Shown: in pieces, positions 16,903 through 25,808 of the stretch
Layout of the letters: each line of letters begins with the position of its first letter
Position numbering within the stretch: the first letter of the stretch is position 1
Source of the DNA: Odoribacter splanchnicus DSM 20712
Lineage (GTDB): Bacteria > Bacteroidota > Bacteroidia > Bacteroidales > Marinifilaceae
Direction of reading: 5' to 3'
DNA: 64,000 nucleotides
Assembly: GCF_000190535.1 (NCBI RefSeq)
Contig: NC_015160.1
Span: 2,232,001-2,296,000, forward strand
Translations under genes and position numbers: made by a program
Notes under the pieces: generated by a model
What the model saw: only the letters and a program-made list of their open reading frames with translations
What the model was told of the DNA's origin: nothing
Databases searched by the model: none

Positions 16903-18447
16903 TCAATAGGTGTTCTGCTTAATTAATCCCAAACTACTTTCTATTTCCGTATTATGTATTGGAGCTGCATATCGGCGCGAATTCTTATCCAACGTATAAG
17001 TCTTTACTGCTTCTTTTCCTAAAATAGTCGCATTGTTATACGGATAAAACTCTCTTTTAATCACCACATCATCGCTTGCATCTTCATTATTATTAAGTCG
17101 CCGAAGATCATACCAACGCATATTAAAAGGCATTTCTCGACGACGCTCTTCCAAAATCTTACGGATAGCCTCTTCTTTAGAATGTGCTGTCAAATTAATC
17201 ACGTCAGCAGGAGCACTTACATCCATACGTTTGGCTCTTAAAATATTTACAGTATTCATCGCTTCTTGAAACAGCCCCTGTCGGGCCTGACACTCTGCTT
17301 TAGTCAAAATCATCTCGGCTACAGTCATTCCAGAAGGAACTCTATCTTTAAAAAAGAAGATATAACCAGGCCATTCATAAGCCGGTGTTGTCAATCCTCT
17401 ATCATAAGAATAATTTTCCACTATGTGATATTTATAACGCAAATCATAATCCTTATCATACAGTGCCAACAAATCCTTGCTCGGCAGATACCACCAAGAT
17501 TCATGATTCAACATTCTGAAATAATAAAACTCCTTCCACTCCAACATATCCGTCATATCAATTTGATTGTCGTGTGTATACGGATACATTATCTCTACCT
17601 TTTCCTGATTAGGCAATCCAACATTGATAGTCACCTCAGATTTGTTCGCACTATATCTCATGTCGGTATTGTAATTCATCAGGACATTGTGTTCCGCCAA
17701 AGCATTTTCTGCATACTTCAATGCTTCGCCATAATTATTAATCGACAAATAATATCGGGCAGCAAAAGCATTTGCTGCAGGCTTGCTACCACGCCAAGTA
17801 CGATATTTGTTATTCACCATTTCAAGCGAATTCTGCAACTTCAGTGCGCCGGTCAGTTCTGATTCAATAGCCTGATAAGTTTCCTCCAAAGTGACCCTGA
17901 TTGTTGGTTCGTCAAAACTGACTGAATTTTTCAATACTAACCCTAACTCTCCTTTATTAGCTTCAGTATAAGGCAAACAATAGGTATTTACCAAAATCCA
18001 ATAACTATATGCTTTAATCAGATGTGCTTCAGCCTCCAATATTTTTTTCTGTTCCTCATCTCCAGTTACCTTTCCCAAATACTCCAACACCATATTAGCA
18101 ATAAAAATCTTCTTATATTCGTTTGCCCAAAAATTTTCTCTTGTGTCATCCGGCAAAAATTCCGTATCCCATGTCGCAAATTCTACGCCAGCAATACCAT
18201 ATGCGTTGGATTTTGCATCATATATTTCTTTATAAAGGCCATAATCATCTGTACTATAAATTGCCGTACGATTTGCTTCTTGATAAAAACTACTATAATT
18301 GTTCAACAATGTTTCCAGATGTTCCAACGTTGTAGGTACCAATGAACTGGTCTTTGACGGCTTCATCTCTAGGAAATCATTGCAAGATATCATACCCAAC
18401 AAACAAAGCGACATGAACCACAATATATATTTATTTCCTTTTTTCAT
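16903..18447 (-). CDS. SusD/RagB-family nutrient-binding lipoprotein
   Basis: A 514-residue surface lipoprotein with lipobox MISC (Cys22) and the N-terminal segment NDFLEMKPSKTSS typical of SusD proteins. TPR-like helices and the C-terminal RagB/SusD motif (EERRREMPFNMRWYDLRRLN, near residue 435) are present, and the length is normal. It pairs with the SusC transporter as lid and captures the substrate at the cell surface. It starts 11 bases after the susC stop. No carbohydrate-active enzyme is adjacent, so the ligand could be a glycan, peptide or other molecule. Confidence 0.92.
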   Translation of the reverse strand: MKKGNKYILWFMSLCLLGMISCNDFLEMKPSKTSSLVPTTLEHLETLLNNYSSFYQEANRTAIYSTDDYGLYKEIYDAKSNAYGIAGVEFATWDTEFLPDDTRENFWANEYKKIFIANMVLEYLGKVTGDEEQKKILEAEAHLIKAYSYWILVNTYCLPYTEANKGELGLVLKNSVSFDEPTIRVTLEETYQAIESELTGALKLQNSLEMVNNKYRTWRGSKPAANAFAARYYLSINNYGEALKYAENALAEHNVLMNYNTDMRYSANKSEVTINVGLPNQEKVEIMYPYTHDNQIDMTDMLEWKEFYYFRMLNHESWWYLPSKDLLALYDKDYDLRYKYHIVENYSYDRGLTTPAYEWPGYIFFFKDRVPSGMTVAEMILTKAECQARQGLFQEAMNTVNILRAKRMDVSAPADVINLTAHSKEEAIRKILEERRREMPFNMRWYDLRRLNNNEDASDDVVIKREFYPYNNATILGKEAVKTYTLDKNSRRYAAPIHNTEIESSLGLIKQNTY

Positions 18448-18458
18448 AATCTTACATT

Positions 18459-21400
18459 TTAAAAATTAAATTTCAAACCCAATGTATAAGATGCTCTCGG
18501 ACGGATTGTTCCTCCATTCATATTAGTTGGATACTCTGGATCCTCATCATATTTATTCTTTACAAATGTATGCAGATTGTTCCCTTGTAGGCTCGGTAAA
18601 CAACGCCTTTCCGCTTTACAGCGGTAGGTTTTCGTTTATCTGCCCCCGAACCGTACTTACACGTCTCCATGTATACGGCTCTCCATCTGTAACATCATTT
18701 TACTTATCACAGCTCTGGATTTTTGCGTTACACTCCGCACATACGACCAAAGTCTTTCTGTGCATATAGAGCATTTTGCGTTCCCAGTCATTTTTACCTT
18801 TTAACTCTTTGAGAGTGCGGACATGGTGCATTACCACTTCTCCGTGCTTGCCACATAGTTCGCACGTTTTTGTTGTAAGCCTTTCTATCAAACTTAACGA
18901 TGGTGTTTTGAACATATACGGCAGATTGTCACTTGGGGCTGTTTCACAATCCGTTTTACGGGCGTAACCCTCATTGTAGAATACCCTGTACTTGGTTTCT
19001 CCTCCCTTGTTTACAAAAGGCACGGCAAAGAGATTGTCCTTGCGGTATGTTTCAATGACTTTTCTCACTGACATATTCAGCTTTTGAGCAAGAGTTTTGT
19101 ACATGGAGAACTTCATAATACAGCCGAAAGAGCGTCCCAAAGCCGATGCATTGTTTGCTATTGAGTAATAGTTGTAGAACCCTCGTATTTCGGTATTAAA
19201 CTGAGATACAATCTCGTGCGCTTCATTGTCAATCATATAAGTCCTGCCTTTTGACACCCATGTTTCCTTGCCGCGTTTGGTGACAACTTTCATGGCTTCG
19301 AGGCTGAGCAGTTTATTCTTGATTACTTCTCTTGAAACGTGCAATATCACGTTCCCGTTGAAGTATCTGCGCACTGTTCCGTTACTGTTTCTCTTTGTGG
19401 CATAGTCTTTACGGACATATATTTCGTAACCCAAAATTTTGCGCTGTCTTGTGCATTTGTAATCAAAGTCTTTTCCTGTGACATCTCCAGCCTTAACTTT
19501 TCCTGCATAAACTTGGTGATGTCAGCTTTGATTGTCTCACATTCGTTTTTCGTTCCGATAACCCCGATTAGAAAATCATCGGCGTAGCGCAGATATCTCA
19601 GTCTGCGAAAATTTCTGTCCATATCGTTGCCACTTGGCATTGTTAGTATCCGCTTCTGCTTTTCGTGCAGTTCTTCTACCATCCTTGTTCTTACGTTTAC
19701 ATCCTCTACTTCATTTATCCTACGTTTTAGGTAGTGTACTCTGCTGTTGAGTTTGCAAATATCCTTGTTGCGGCTTCTTACTGTCCCCTTTTAATTGAAT
19801 TTTGTTGGCATATTCATTCATGTACTTATCGAACTTGTCAAGGTATATATTTGCCAAAACAGGGCTTATGATACCACCTTGCGGTGTCCCTGAATAAGTC
19901 TTGTTGAATTGCCACTCTTCCATGTACCCTGCATTGAGGAATTTCCGTATCAGACGAAGAAATCTGTCATCTGCTATTCTGCCTTTCATTATTTCTATCA
20001 GCACATCATGGTCTATGTTGTCAAAGAAGCCTTTTATATCTCCCTCGATGAACCATTTTGCACCGTTGAAATTATTTTGTAGACTTTTCAGTGCTGTGTG
20101 GCAGCTTCTGTTTGGTCTGAAGCCGTGCGATGTCCACTCAAAGTGTCCCTCATATATAGCTTCAAGCACCATTCTTACTGCCTCTTGAACCAATTTGTCT
20201 TCAAAAGACGGTATTCCTAACGGACGCATCTTCCCATTCTTTTCGGAATGTAAATTCTCTTTGCAGGATTGGGACTATAAGTCTCATCCTTTATACTCTC
20301 TATGAGTTTGTTTATCCTATCAATGCTCATTTCATCCTCTGTTTTGCCATCAGTGCCGGGTGTCATGTTTCCCGGCTTTGCATACATACGTTGGTAGGCG
20401 GCAAAGAACATCTGTTCATTGAATAGAATACGGTAGAGCCTTTCGTATTTATACTCAGGCTCGTTGCTGTGTCCAGCTAAAATGTTTAATACTTGCTCTG
20501 GATTTCTCATACGTCTCTCACGTTTTCCGTTGTTCGTATTAAAGTTACAGACTACTTCCCTTCGCCATGTACAAGGCTTTCCCTTGCTCGGACTACTACG
20601 GAAGTTCCGTTACCATATCGGATATTCAAAAGCTTTCTTTATAGCTGTTTATTCCAGCGTTCCGACTTAGGTAATCCCCAGTTAGTTCTCTTAATAACTA
20701 TTAGCACGGCATACTGTCGGATGCGACTTTCGTTCTTGTCCGCTTATTGCGGCTGTGTCATAGTCGGTTCTTTATGCTCTGCACTAACGCACAAAATAGG
20801 CAGAGTACTATGAAACAACGTATGTATAATAGTCTTCCGTTGTTGCAAGATTTGGTACCACTGAACTATCGTTCAACCAATCAAGGCTTCATCCTTATGT
20901 ATGCCTTTTCGTCTTGCCCCTCAGTCGCCACTTGACTATTAGTGGACTTGGAGCTTTAATCAGTATGCTACACTCCCCATCGGGTTTCCCCTTTGGATAA
21001 ACTGATTGACGATAGGATTATATCGAACCCAATCCTAACTTCTTGCTAAAGAAGTATTTATTAAGCGACCATTCTGGGCGCACGTGCATAAATTTGGAAA
21101 GAGGCGATACCAATTTTTGACAACCAGCGAGATGGCATGTTATAAGTGATATTAACCTCCTGAATTCTGATATGCGATGCACTTTCCACCAGATAATCCA
21201 TATAAGGATAGAAACGATCCCAAAAATAGTAGCGTGGTTCCTCTTTGTCAAATGGAATTGGAATCATTTTCATAGGGTCGGCTTCCAATACCTCTTTATA
21301 CATTTTATTAGGTTTAGCAGAACCTCCTGACATACTCGGATAGTTGAAAGAACAACGTTTAAACTTATGACCAAATTTACCTGTAATAATAAATGAAAGA

Positions 21401-24400
21401 TCAAAATCGAAAATCTTAAATGTATTGGAGTATCCCAATGTATACGGAGCCACCTTCGTTCCCATATCCAACATATAATCCCGACCATCACCTGGTGTCC
21501 AAGTTGTAAAGTCATATAAATCTTCGCCAGCCCCCTGCACAACCGGCTGCCAATTAGGATTATCGTCCGTACCTTTATTCACAACACCGGCATATTTAAA
21601 CGTCCATAGACTATTAGAATTATGTCCTTCCACGTATGCCGAAGTTCCTCCTCCATAAAGATCGTATGCATTATACGTTGCTTTATACAAACTAATAATC
21701 TTATTTTTATTGTAAGAAAAATTCAAACTTCCTGTCCATGTGATATCCGCCCCCAAAATCGATAAAGTTGAACCGACCTCCAATTCAAGACCGCGATTTG
21801 CCATTTTTGCCGTATTCAGTTTCTGTGATTTTGTTCCATTAACAGCCGGAATTGTCATAGAAGTAATCAAATCTTTACCTTGTTTGTTATAAACGTCCAA
21901 TTTACCACACAATTTACCTCCCCAAAAAGAATAATCCACACCAACATCCCATGTCCCTGTTTTTTCCCACCTTAAAGAAGGATTACCAAAGCTACTTACA
22001 CTAGAGGTAATTTCATGCGTATAGGTATTCTGTGTAGCAGAAACGCTAATTAAAGGACGGAAAGAGGTTGATTTATCCACATTACCGTTGTATCCGTAAG
22101 TGACCCGTATATTCAAACGATCTAACCAAGCAAAATCCTTCATAAAATTCTCTTTTCCAATCTGCCAGCCCAAGCCGACAGACCAAAATGGAGCATACCG
22201 ATATTTCGGATCATCCGTAATCAAATTAGACGCATCAGTACGAATACTTCCAGATGCAGTATATTTGCCGTCAAAAGTATAGGATGCATTACCAAACAAT
22301 GAAAAATAACGGTCTGTTGTATAACTGAATGCATTTGTATAGTTGAATGTCTGACTCCACCCCATCCAATTCTTGGTTTTTGTCGGTCCATTAGGGAATA
22401 AACCAACTGTCAGACGGTCATCATCGTATCCGTAAGTGAGCGGATAAGAGGTTGTCTGTTTTACCCTTTGATTCACTTCTGTTCCCACAATTACACTTAC
22501 GTCGTGTTTATCGGCAAATGTATAATTGAAATTCAACTGATTTCTAAAGCTATAGGCTCTGATTTCCTCCTTTGACATCTCTTTGATTCCGCCAACTGGC
22601 AAATTCGCCGTAATCTTATCTATTTTATGGTCCCACGTAGATGCCTGATTCACAGTACTGCGTACATAAAAAGTCTTGTCATTATAGATATTCTCTATAT
22701 TTGTATTATACATTTCATATTGAATCTTAGAATCCAATGAAAGTCCCTTCCATAATGACACAACCAATCCTGTCTGAATTCTTGCATTCAATTGTTTTGT
22801 CATCAATTTCTGATTTTCAATTTCGGTAATCGGATTATAAGTCCAATCTGCATATGGAAATTTTTCCATTGGCACATGGCGTTCCAATATTGGCATATAA
22901 TAATTATGTGGAACAGAAATACGCTCTCCATTTTCACCTACTAACATATCGTATGGAAACAACCCCAAAATGCCGTTGCGGGATCCGCTATTGTCAATCT
23001 CGTTATATTGTAACATTCCTGAAAAATTGAAATCCAGCCATTTGAAAAGTTTTACATTAGTTCTGTAATTCACTAAAAAGCGGTCTGTATTGTTTTCCTT
23101 AAAATTATTCTTTTCGTTTTCATACATCAACGACAACATATTAGTCATTCGATCTGTTACTCCAGATATATTCACATTATATTGCTGAGTTACAGGAAGC
23201 TGTAGCAAATATTTTTTTATCTGACTCTTATTGTCTTGCATTTTCAGTTTTTCCAGCACTTTGTTCATGTCACTCTCGCTTATAAAGCCTAAGCGGTGTT
23301 CATTCATGGCAACTACAGCCTGAGAATATCCACTCTGTGCATTTGTATAACTATCATCAATTGGACTCCATGGGCCACCAAAAAAATTCGTTGAAAAACC
23401 TCTCTGTTCATAATCCACCACGTCGGCAGAAGAAGCAAATGGACGATAAGTATCTAAATCCAATTTACGAGAAATCTTTGCAAAAGCCGAAACATTCACA
23501 CGAGCCCCTTTAGTAGTTTCCTGTTTACCTTTCTTAGTTGTAACTACAATCACACCATTAGCTGAACGTGCCCCCCAAATAGAAGCGGCTGCTGCATCTT
23601 TCAAAATTGTAATACTCTCCACATCATTAGGGTTTATAGAGCTAAATTCATCTTCTACAGCAAATCCATCAACAACCACTAACGGACGTGCATTATCTGT
23701 GTTCAAACTGGTCTGGCCACGAATCTCGAACACCAACTTACCGTTGCTATCCAGACGATTCTGCACTCCAGCTGTTGTTCCAATCAAACGAGTCGCAATA
23801 TCCGAGGTCGGCTTAGTAATCTGGGCAACAGACACAATATCAAACGCTCCGGTCGCACGTTCGCGAGAAATCGTCTGATAACCGGTAACAATTACTTCTT
23901 CCAAAGCTTTGGTGTCACTCTCCAACACAACATTCAATACATTAGAAGTACCCAATTTCACTTCTTTGTTTTTCATTCCAACAAAAGAAATCTGAAAGAT
24001 TACTCCTGCAACGTCATCCACTCGAATTTCAAATTTACCATCGATATCCGTGGCTACACCGGTCTGGGTTCCTTTCACAATAATAGAAGCTCCAGGAATC
24101 GGTTCACCCTTGCTATCTTTTACCGTTCCGACTACCGTGCGTTTTTTCACCGACTGCGGAATTACTTGCACAAACTCGTCTGTACGATTACGCACGATAA
24201 TCACATCATCCTTAAACTCATATTCTAAATCTTTGCTTGATAATAGGTCTCTCAACAAAGTCTTTAATTGAACTGTTTTAGCGTTTACGCTCACATTCCC
24301 TTTATGCTGCACTACATCATAATTATACAAAAAATCATAACCTGTCTTTCGTGTAATTTCATTGAATACTTCCACAAGAGAAACATCCTTCATTTTCAAG

Positions 24401-24549
24401 CTAATCATACCCTCTTGGGAATAGACTTCAGCTGAGACTGAAAGTACTCCGAGCAATAAAAAACAAGCCAGATAATTCATACGCCAAAACATTTTTTTTA
24501 ACCATATCTTTTCCCACAATATGGTATTCTTTAACCATCTTTTTTTCAT
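18459..24549 (-). CDS. SusC-type TonB-dependent transporter, split by a group II intron
   Basis: Exon 1 is 24549-21084 and exon 2 is 18586-18459; joined across the intron they give 1,197 residues, a normal SusC length. In order: signal peptide (about 25-45), STN domain (about 48-115) used for sensing through FecR, carboxypeptidase-like repeat (about 140-215), plug (from EEVIVTGYQ near 220) and a beta barrel. Exon 2 encodes the last barrel strand, ending LGLKFNF with the terminal Phe. Without splicing the product ends after exon 1 plus seven intron-coded residues (RAPRMVA) and lacks that strand. It imports SusD-bound substrate across the outer membrane. Confidence 0.88.
18648..18681 (-). ncRNA. 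Group II intron domain V
   Basis: A 34-base hairpin beginning GAGCCGTATAC and ending GTACGGTTC with a GAGA-type tip, matching the catalytic domain V layout, including the AGC triad near its 5' side. Domain VI follows to the 3' splice site. Confidence 0.85.
18700..20510 (-). pseudogene. ltrA: Group II intron maturase/reverse transcriptase, three frameshifts
   Basis: Start at the ATG 20510 (MRNPEQVLNILAG); end at 18700. Four overlapping pieces together cover a full intron-encoded protein: RT domains 0-4 (TPGTDGKT, then RPNRSCHTAL and SGTPQGGIISP), RT-5 catalytic YADD, maturase domain X (IRGFYNYY), and a C-terminal HNH endonuclease (CELCGKHG, CAECNAK). The frame breaks at 20240-20243 (one A too few on the minus strand), 19789-19792 (one too many) and 19433-19436 (one too few in the AAAATTTT run). 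As read, no active maturase can be made; sequencing error at short homopolymers is the alternative. Confidence 0.88.
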
Positions 24550-24632: not shown

Positions 24633-25808
24633 CTATTTCCGGTTTTTGTTAACACCTACGATTATTGTCCGGTTTTCAATTGTAAAATCTACATCATTCG
24701 TCAGTTTTATCATTGTTAATAAATTTGTTATATCTTCATATCGTTTCACCCGTCCTGAGAAACGCAATTTTTCTGCATCATCAACAAAAACTACATGAAT
24801 GTCATACCAACGTTCCAAGGTTCGCATTATCTCACCTAAAGATTGCTTGTCAAAAGCATAATACCCGTCCTTCCAGGAAGTGTACAGTGCTGTATTAACT
24901 TTCTGCACACCAATATCCGACTCACCCTTTTTGCAAACGGCCTGCTCTTCCGGTCGTAAAATACAATTCTCTCCCTCTTCGTTCACCACTCGGACTGTTC
25001 CATTCACCAAGGTTGTGAATACTTCTCCGCTTTCCTGTATCGTTGAAATATTAAATTCAGTACCCAATGCCGTCACATCTGCTCCATCTGCACAAACAAT
25101 AAACGGACGTCCGGCGTCTTTTGCCACCTCAAAATAGGCTTCTCCCTTTAAAAATATTCTGCGCTCGTCTCCACCAAAGGCAACAGGGAAACGCAATTCC
25201 GTCTCTGCATTCAGCCACACATTACTGCCATCTTCCAACTTTAATTGATATTCTCCTCCACGAGGAATTGTCAAAATATTATATTCCAACTCATTATTAT
25301 TTTTCTTGACTCCGGCTTCATATTCAAGGACATTCCCAATATTCCGGATTTTGCTGCTATCCTTGCTTACAAAATGTCCCTCTTCCTGTAAGTCCAACTG
25401 CTCGCCTGATGCTAAAGTCAATACAGCTTTCGGAGAACCCGGTACAATTGGCGATTCTACAACTTCAACTTTTGCAATCTGTTCATCTTCTTTTTCAATC
25501 AGCAACAATACACCCATGCCAAGTGTCAATGCAACAACTGCCGCATATCCCCAACGTACAATTTGCCGACGAAGCTTTATCATTTTATGGTTTTTCACTC
25601 TACCACAATTTTCCTCCCAGGCTCGTTGTATATTTATGGAGTCTTTTAGACTACCTTTATTTCCTTCGTAGAAAGTCTGCAACCCTGCATATTCATCCCG
25701 GTTCTGCTTATTCTCGTCCAACCAATTATGCAAAATACTTACATCTTCCGGAGATAACTCTTCGCCATGAATTGAAGCTGCTATAATTTCCCAAATCCTA
25801 TTTTCCAT
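24633..25808 (-). CDS. FecR-family anti-sigma factor
   Basis: A 391-residue inner-membrane regulator: cytoplasmic anti-sigma part (about 1-80), one transmembrane helix (about 87-104), periplasmic FecR domain (about 180-280, with IPRGGEYQLKLEDGSNVWLN), and a C-terminal DUF4974 domain (about 310-388, FSGRVKRYEDITNLLTMIK) that contacts the STN domain of the transporter. It controls an ECF sigma factor, probably the one at 30272. It is the first gene of the operon, 83 bases before susC. The 56-base repeat copy B begins 21 bases upstream of its start. Confidence 0.93.
   Translation of the reverse strand: MENRIWEIIAASIHGEELSPEDVSILHNWLDENKQNRDEYAGLQTFYEGNKGSLKDSINIQRAWEENCGRVKNHKMIKLRRQIVRWGYAAVVALTLGMGVLLLIEKEDEQIAKVEVVESPIVPGSPKAVLTLASGEQLDLQEEGHFVSKDSSKIRNIGNVLEYEAGVKKNNNELEYNILTIPRGGEYQLKLEDGSNVWLNAETELRFPVAFGGDERRIFLKGEAYFEVAKDAGRPFIVCADGADVTALGTEFNISTIQESGEVFTTLVNGTVRVVNEEGENCILRPEEQAVCKKGESDIGVQKVNTALYTSWKDGYYAFDKQSLGEIMRTLERWYDIHVVFVDDAEKLRFSGRVKRYEDITNLLTMIKLTNDVDFTIENRTIIVGVNKNRK

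Follow-up and report, generated by a model that had tools for sequence, protein, structure and literature searches.

The susC gene of Odoribacter splanchnicus DSM 20712 is split by a group II intron, and two further copies of this intron split ssb and a tyrosine-recombinase gene in the same genome. We consider it probable, with good confidence, that a mobile intron at home in recombinase genes moved from there into secondary sites in ssb and susC, and that it splices itself out of its hosts and persists as a tolerated parasite rather than as a switch. The analysis was based on positions 2,232,001-2,296,000 of NC_015160.1, a stretch of 64,000 nt referred to here as the window, whose own numbering is used below unless a genome coordinate is given.

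The intron in susC

The gene lies on the minus strand and consists of exon 1 (21084..24549; 3,466 nt, or 1,155 codons and one base, defined by its open reading frame and a TIGR04056 match) and exon 2 (18459..18586; 128 nt including the stop codon), which completes the last 41 residues in frame. Between them, also read on the minus strand, is a group II intron of 2,497 nt (18587..21083), whose 5' end GTGCGCCC directly follows exon 1 (...CAAATTTATGCAC) and whose 3' end GAGCCTAC is followed by exon 2 from 18586. Group II introns share the boundary consensus GUGYG...AY, which is satisfied by the ends GTGCG...CCTAC in this copy and in the two other genome copies, where the ends are identical; the 5' boundary in susC is further backed by covariation between intron and exon (see below). 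The domain V/VI region (18587..18683, minus strand) matched all 77 model positions of the Rfam family RF00029, 'Group II catalytic intron', with 55.1 bits (gathering score, 40), the sole gathering-level Rfam match inside the window, and the fold of 18587-18700 gave z = -4.08. The presence and ends of the intron, as proposed in the initial annotation, were borne out base for base.

Joining the exons yields a protein of 1,197 residues with the C-terminus ...SYTLGLKFNF, identified as a SusC/RagA transporter by a TIGR04056 match that runs through the C-terminus. Five intron-free SusC homologues with 44-64% identity, from four other genomes of the genus (L050-L053) and a paralogue in the same genome (L057), align with the joined product across the junction, where L050 has the identical string IYAQGNNL; the L053 alignment starts at residue 728, and that of L052 ends three residues short of the terminus. 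Without splicing, the frame runs seven codons into the intron before a stop and ends at residue 1,162 with ...FQIYARAPRMVA, giving the tail RAPRMVA. The unspliced protein reaches position 943 of the 981 in TIGR04056, while the joined C-terminal piece reaches 981, so that splicing supplies the last 38 profile positions, the C-terminal strand among them. The joined frame and the homologues thus uphold two earlier claims, that the exons join in frame to a 1,197-residue SusC and that only the spliced form carries the last barrel strand; comparison with an intron-free homologue had been named as a possible refutation, and all five agree with the joined exons through the junction.

Directly downstream of susC is a susD-like gene (16903..18447, minus strand; Pfam SusD-like_3 and SusD_RagB), and upstream is a fecR-like anti-sigma gene (24633..25808, minus strand; Pfam FecR and FecR_C). 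A search with SusC exon 1 returned 133 matching stretches within the genome. Separately, two adjacent open frames at G000:C1:2004166-2007470 correspond to two SusC halves, representing either a frameshifted susC or an assembly error.

Further copies and the intron-encoded protein

A search of the genome revealed two further copies that share the ends of the window copy and are identical to it outside the protein frame. One splits ssb (G000:C1:257454-259948; L008, L014), whose joined exons form an open frame. The other lies in a tyrosine-recombinase gene (G000:C1:1421747-1424241; L009, L013), with a single base between the Ala codon of the sequence TTQIYA and the intron. These two copies differ at three bases over 2,508 aligned, all accounted for by the differing exon bases. 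All three copies in the genome are thus inside protein-coding genes, and in all three the unspliced frame stops within the intron with the common tail APRMVA.

The split ssb gives the one match to PF00436 in this one-contig genome (completeness, 99.99). Its joined exons end in DDNDDLPF; the unspliced frame ends in EIYAGAPRMVA, matching the SSB profile to position 99 of 104 and lacking the acidic C-terminal tip. The unspliced recombinase frame retains the Tyr of its motif and ends in SAPRMVA. E. coli depends on SSB, and on the acidic tip of the protein, for viability. If this essentiality holds in O. splanchnicus, the intron RNA must splice in these cells, which makes the ssb copy the best argument for splicing in vivo, albeit an indirect one.

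The reverse transcriptase/maturase frame of the window copy (18700..20510, minus strand) is frameshifted as assembled. The ssb and recombinase copies each encode an intact protein of 602 residues, with the same sequence in both; that of the ssb copy contains the Pfam domains RVT_1, Intron_maturas2 and HNH and scores 303.6 bits against TIGR04416, narrowly over the cut-off of 300. The window and ssb copies differ at six homopolymer runs alone, by one base each and all inside the protein frame: four adjacent runs (19788..19806, minus strand) each carry an extra base relative to the other copies, and two further runs, beginning at 20243 and 19436 (minus strand), are one base shorter. Once homopolymer runs are collapsed, the two copies are exactly the same, and the intron RNA outside the frame is identical as it stands. 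Because every one of the six differences adds or removes a single homopolymer base, a sequencing error in the window copy is possible, and four neighboring runs that have all grown by one base suggest faulty base calling or polishing more than decay. Another reverse transcriptase gene (RVT_1, 505 aa; L004:955-2472, near 939 kb of the genome) showed no intron match; together with an adjacent ORF (L004:2779-3567), it resembles a diversity-generating retroelement, judged by eye only.

Home site and target choice of the lineage

To place the susC site among those of its relatives, we compiled 15 copies from other genomes, drawn from 19 loci of a genome collection and from further genome searches; each could be read at its 5' flank and was 75% identical or more over the part that aligned. 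Ten are 96-100% identical (L015-L020, L028, L031, L101 and L106, with L101 and L106 compared over 126 bases only), and five are 75-88% identical (L021, L099, L105, L121 and L122, with L105 compared over 259 bases only). The intron sits in a tyrosine-recombinase frame, in sense orientation and phase 1, directly after [TI]TQ[IV]YA in 14/15, although these 14 are not all independent, some sharing targets (L018 and L106 have an identical 40-base target), and the frames of L101 and L106 were read by eye from the DNA. The remaining copy, L121, lies at this DNA motif outside any evident gene. Pfam analysis of nine exon-1 frames from this set detected Phage_integrase in 9/9, extending to profile position 166 of 172, and the recombinase copy of O. 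splanchnicus itself matches to position 167. The recombinases of the outside copies differ from one another upstream of the motif, whose Tyr we take to be the catalytic one. None of the 15 copies lies in a relaxase frame. The motif [TI]TQ[IV]YA is present at the recombinase copy of O. splanchnicus and absent at susC (ASFQIYA) and ssb (TTEIYA). Judged by sequence, the window copy is a member of this proposed recombinase-homing lineage and sits at a secondary site.

Copies readable only at the 3' flank, one without a flank (L032/L108) and introns of about 60-72% identity were kept outside the 15. Among the 3'-flank-only copies, three (L022/L107, L033/L096 and L110) lead into recombinase-like C-termini; the 3' flanks of L114-L120, which are 79% identical over about 120 bases at the intron 3' end (all that is visible), are not recombinase-like, and with these included the proportion in recombinases is 3/10. 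Since conservation is higher at the intron 3' end than over the full element, as in L035 (81% identity at the 3' end vs 70% over its longest stretch), we assigned L114-L120 to a more distant family. In L114-L120, all from G449 (Phocaeicola faecicola, the genome that also holds L033), the intron 3' ends lie at or near contig ends, and four of the seven 3' flanks run into one similar frame (e.g. VKYADEPLLLNVEM) that appears by eye to encode a conjugation protein. At about 60-72% identity, several introns are inserted elsewhere, in some cases in frames that resemble conjugation genes (named by eye). The 3' flank of L124 and L125 (72% over the longest stretch) encodes a tyrosine recombinase, entered well before the motif Tyr, which makes this another insertion site within that gene family. 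Near the intron-bearing recombinase of L020 is a MobV-family relaxase (L020:9679-10515; NF041497, over cut-off), as expected if the host is a mobile element.

The exon-binding sites were located by a blind scan of intron columns for pairing with the 5' exon across 14 diverged introns; the six best registers of the raw column scan corresponded to EBS2 (four) and EBS1 (two). In the window copy, EBS1 (20787..20792, minus strand; intron 292-297, GTGCGT) covaries with exon positions -1..-6, and EBS2 (20847..20853, minus strand; intron 231-237, AAATCTT) with -7..-13. The corresponding IBS1/IBS2 in exon 1 (21084..21096, minus strand) is CAAATTTATGCAC, which encodes Gln-Ile-Tyr-Ala plus one base. For EBS1, 62/84 pairs formed in the fixed register, whereas permutations averaged 41 and never exceeded 59 (0/2000 reached the observed value). 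This significance is overstated, given that targets recur among the introns and that the data used for the test had also served to choose the column. Predicted pairing at EBS1 and EBS2 is 6/6 (one pair being G-U) and 5/7 at susC, 4/6 and 6/7 at ssb, and 5/6 and 4/7 at the recombinase of the same genome.

The 5' exon of the lineage reads CAR-ATH-TAY-GCN-N, with two exceptions: G for the first C at ssb, and GTG for ATH in L105. The variation that remains is confined to third codon positions and the last base. A G of EBS1 faces the wobble base of TAY, where either C or U can pair. Pairing strength was rejected as a predictor of the insertion site: counting both strands and accepting G-U pairs, the window offers 102 positions that reach 11/13 or more and thus equal or beat susC. 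With pairing alone so unselective, something else must help choose the site, presumably the protein, as is the case in other group II introns. Genome-wide, the pattern SARATHTAYGC occurs 74 times, as against 28 for its reversed control; three of the 74 carry the intron. Thirty of them were inspected, and in 10 the longest open frame was read as [QE]IYA, the occupied ssb and recombinase sites being two of these. Two landings in an I-Y-A frame are suggestive, although not significant.

Origin, alternative readings and known systems

Searches of 7 other genomes of the genus gave no match to the intron, and in 55 other genomes of the family the long matches are all 67-70% identical. The closest relatives found, 95-97% identical over the full length, are in Bacteroides, Phocaeicola and Prevotella. 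An order-wide genome search returned, besides O. splanchnicus itself, 3/393 genomes with 70-72% identity, and 17/399 genomes in the family of G445 gave matches at E 1e-100 or better, contributing L121 and L122. Plasmid and phage records contained no near matches to the intron, and no relative of the encoded protein was confirmed in viral contigs. Mobility is indicated by comparison, with three near-identical copies at different sites and 97% identical relatives in other genera. The distribution fits a recent horizontal arrival followed by local spread.

We propose that a mobile group II intron arrived by horizontal transfer, its usual home being the stretch of tyrosine-recombinase genes that provides the Gln-Ile-Tyr-Ala codons plus one base, and that it moved into two secondary sites offering the same I-Y-A codons, in ssb and susC. 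In the susC transcript, the intron would fold, pair with the exon through EBS1 and EBS2 and splice, restoring the 1,197-residue transporter. The helper protein could be supplied in trans by the intact ssb and recombinase copies, or by the susC copy itself should the frameshifts there be artifacts of sequencing. The intron would be tolerated as a parasite because it removes itself, at the probable cost of less SusC. Splicing in vivo, help in trans, the direction of movement and lowered expression are what we infer from sequence comparison. Against this mechanism stand the frameshifted protein of the window copy and the incomplete pairing of EBS2 at susC and of EBS1 at ssb. For the cost there is precedent: in the accessible text of PMC6003770, Ll.LtrB re-opens exons once they are spliced, which strongly lowers the host mRNA, and expression is likewise lowered by EcI5 and BhI1. 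Most likely, SusC is made from spliced mRNA, probably in smaller amounts.

An alternative, which we regard as unlikely though deserving of some weight, is that the insertion is recent, splicing is poor or absent with the intron's own protein broken, and the susC locus is dead or strongly attenuated, a loss that would be tolerated because the cell has many other SusC proteins. The frameshifts as assembled, the 133 stretches matching SusC exon 1 and the lowered host expression caused by Ll.LtrB, EcI5 and BhI1 (in the accessible text of PMC6003770) would fit such a locus, and with a recent arrival the intact exons are no proof that it continues to function. However, the RNA outside the protein frame is the same as in the ssb copy, the EBS1 pairing at susC is better than at either ssb or the recombinase, and intact protein is encoded by two other copies. 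The initial annotation had also raised on/off control, in which condition-dependent splicing of susC, by determining whether the protein has 1,162 or 1,197 residues, would turn the uptake locus on and off. We found no support for this and consider it very improbable: site choice in the lineage follows a DNA motif, the copies are in unrelated genes, and absence from 7 other genomes of the genus leaves little time for control to evolve. Least probable of all is that the SusC ending in RAPRMVA functions without splicing; the frame does enter the intron and stop there in all three host genes with a shared APRMVA, but SusC would lose 38 TIGR04056 positions including its C-terminal strand, and SSB its acidic tip.

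Beyond a self-removing parasite, a bolder reading, which we put forward tentatively and hold to be somewhat less than an even bet, is that the intron has made itself indispensable: the sole detected ssb would need its removal, and one maturase would serve ssb, susC and the integrase, all by way of a codon-degenerate recombinase motif that spills over into core genes. If true, this would represent the bacterial start of a shared splicing apparatus, with one protein for several host genes. The strain would offer a natural system, a bacterium living with a group II intron in ssb, in which the service of one maturase to several genes is testable.

The earlier statement that bacterial group II introns mostly sit outside essential or housekeeping genes is broadly right, as far as the available portions of PMC4424553 and PMC6003770 go. 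Introns in bacterial housekeeping genes are nevertheless known, notably in cyanobacteria and from the CL and ML lineages (available portion of PMC4424553). In Thermosynechococcus elongatus, one copy pairs well at EBS/IBS and lies within a single-copy tRNA gene that is putatively essential (accessible part of PMC2882425). With such introns already known, the susC intron joins a known kind, and its distinctive features are the target motif and the ssb insertion. Neither the recombinase site nor the ssb insertion was found in searches of one open-access library, which most subscription journals lie outside. As described in the same part of PMC2882425, T. elongatus likewise has several related copies per genome, with proteins acting in trans; few of its copies are within genes, whereas here 3/3 are in protein-coding genes. 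RmInt1 of Sinorhizobium also recognizes its exon through EBS1 and EBS2, and the text available from PMC3123198 reports that its excision required EBS1-IBS1 pairing and that this pairing sufficed; the pairing decisive there is complete at susC. In contrast, RmInt1 is a IIB intron found in other host genes (same text).

The closest parallel is provided by Ll.LtrB and Ef.PcfG of Lactococcus and Enterococcus. According to the accessible sections of PMC5072309, these mobile introns with their own reverse transcriptase/maturase occupy relaxase catalytic histidine motifs of conjugative elements, the single exception being a retrotransposition into a chromosomal cell-surface protein gene. Like them, the lineage described here occupies a catalytic-motif site in a gene of mobile elements; unlike them, it has its home in the [TI]TQ[IV]YA motif of tyrosine recombinases and secondary sites in ssb and susC. 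The susC intron would thus repeat the Ll.LtrB logic with recombinases in place of relaxases and with a surface transporter and ssb as its secondary hosts, a second example in which the motif codons of a mobile-element enzyme serve as a landing site in many genomes.
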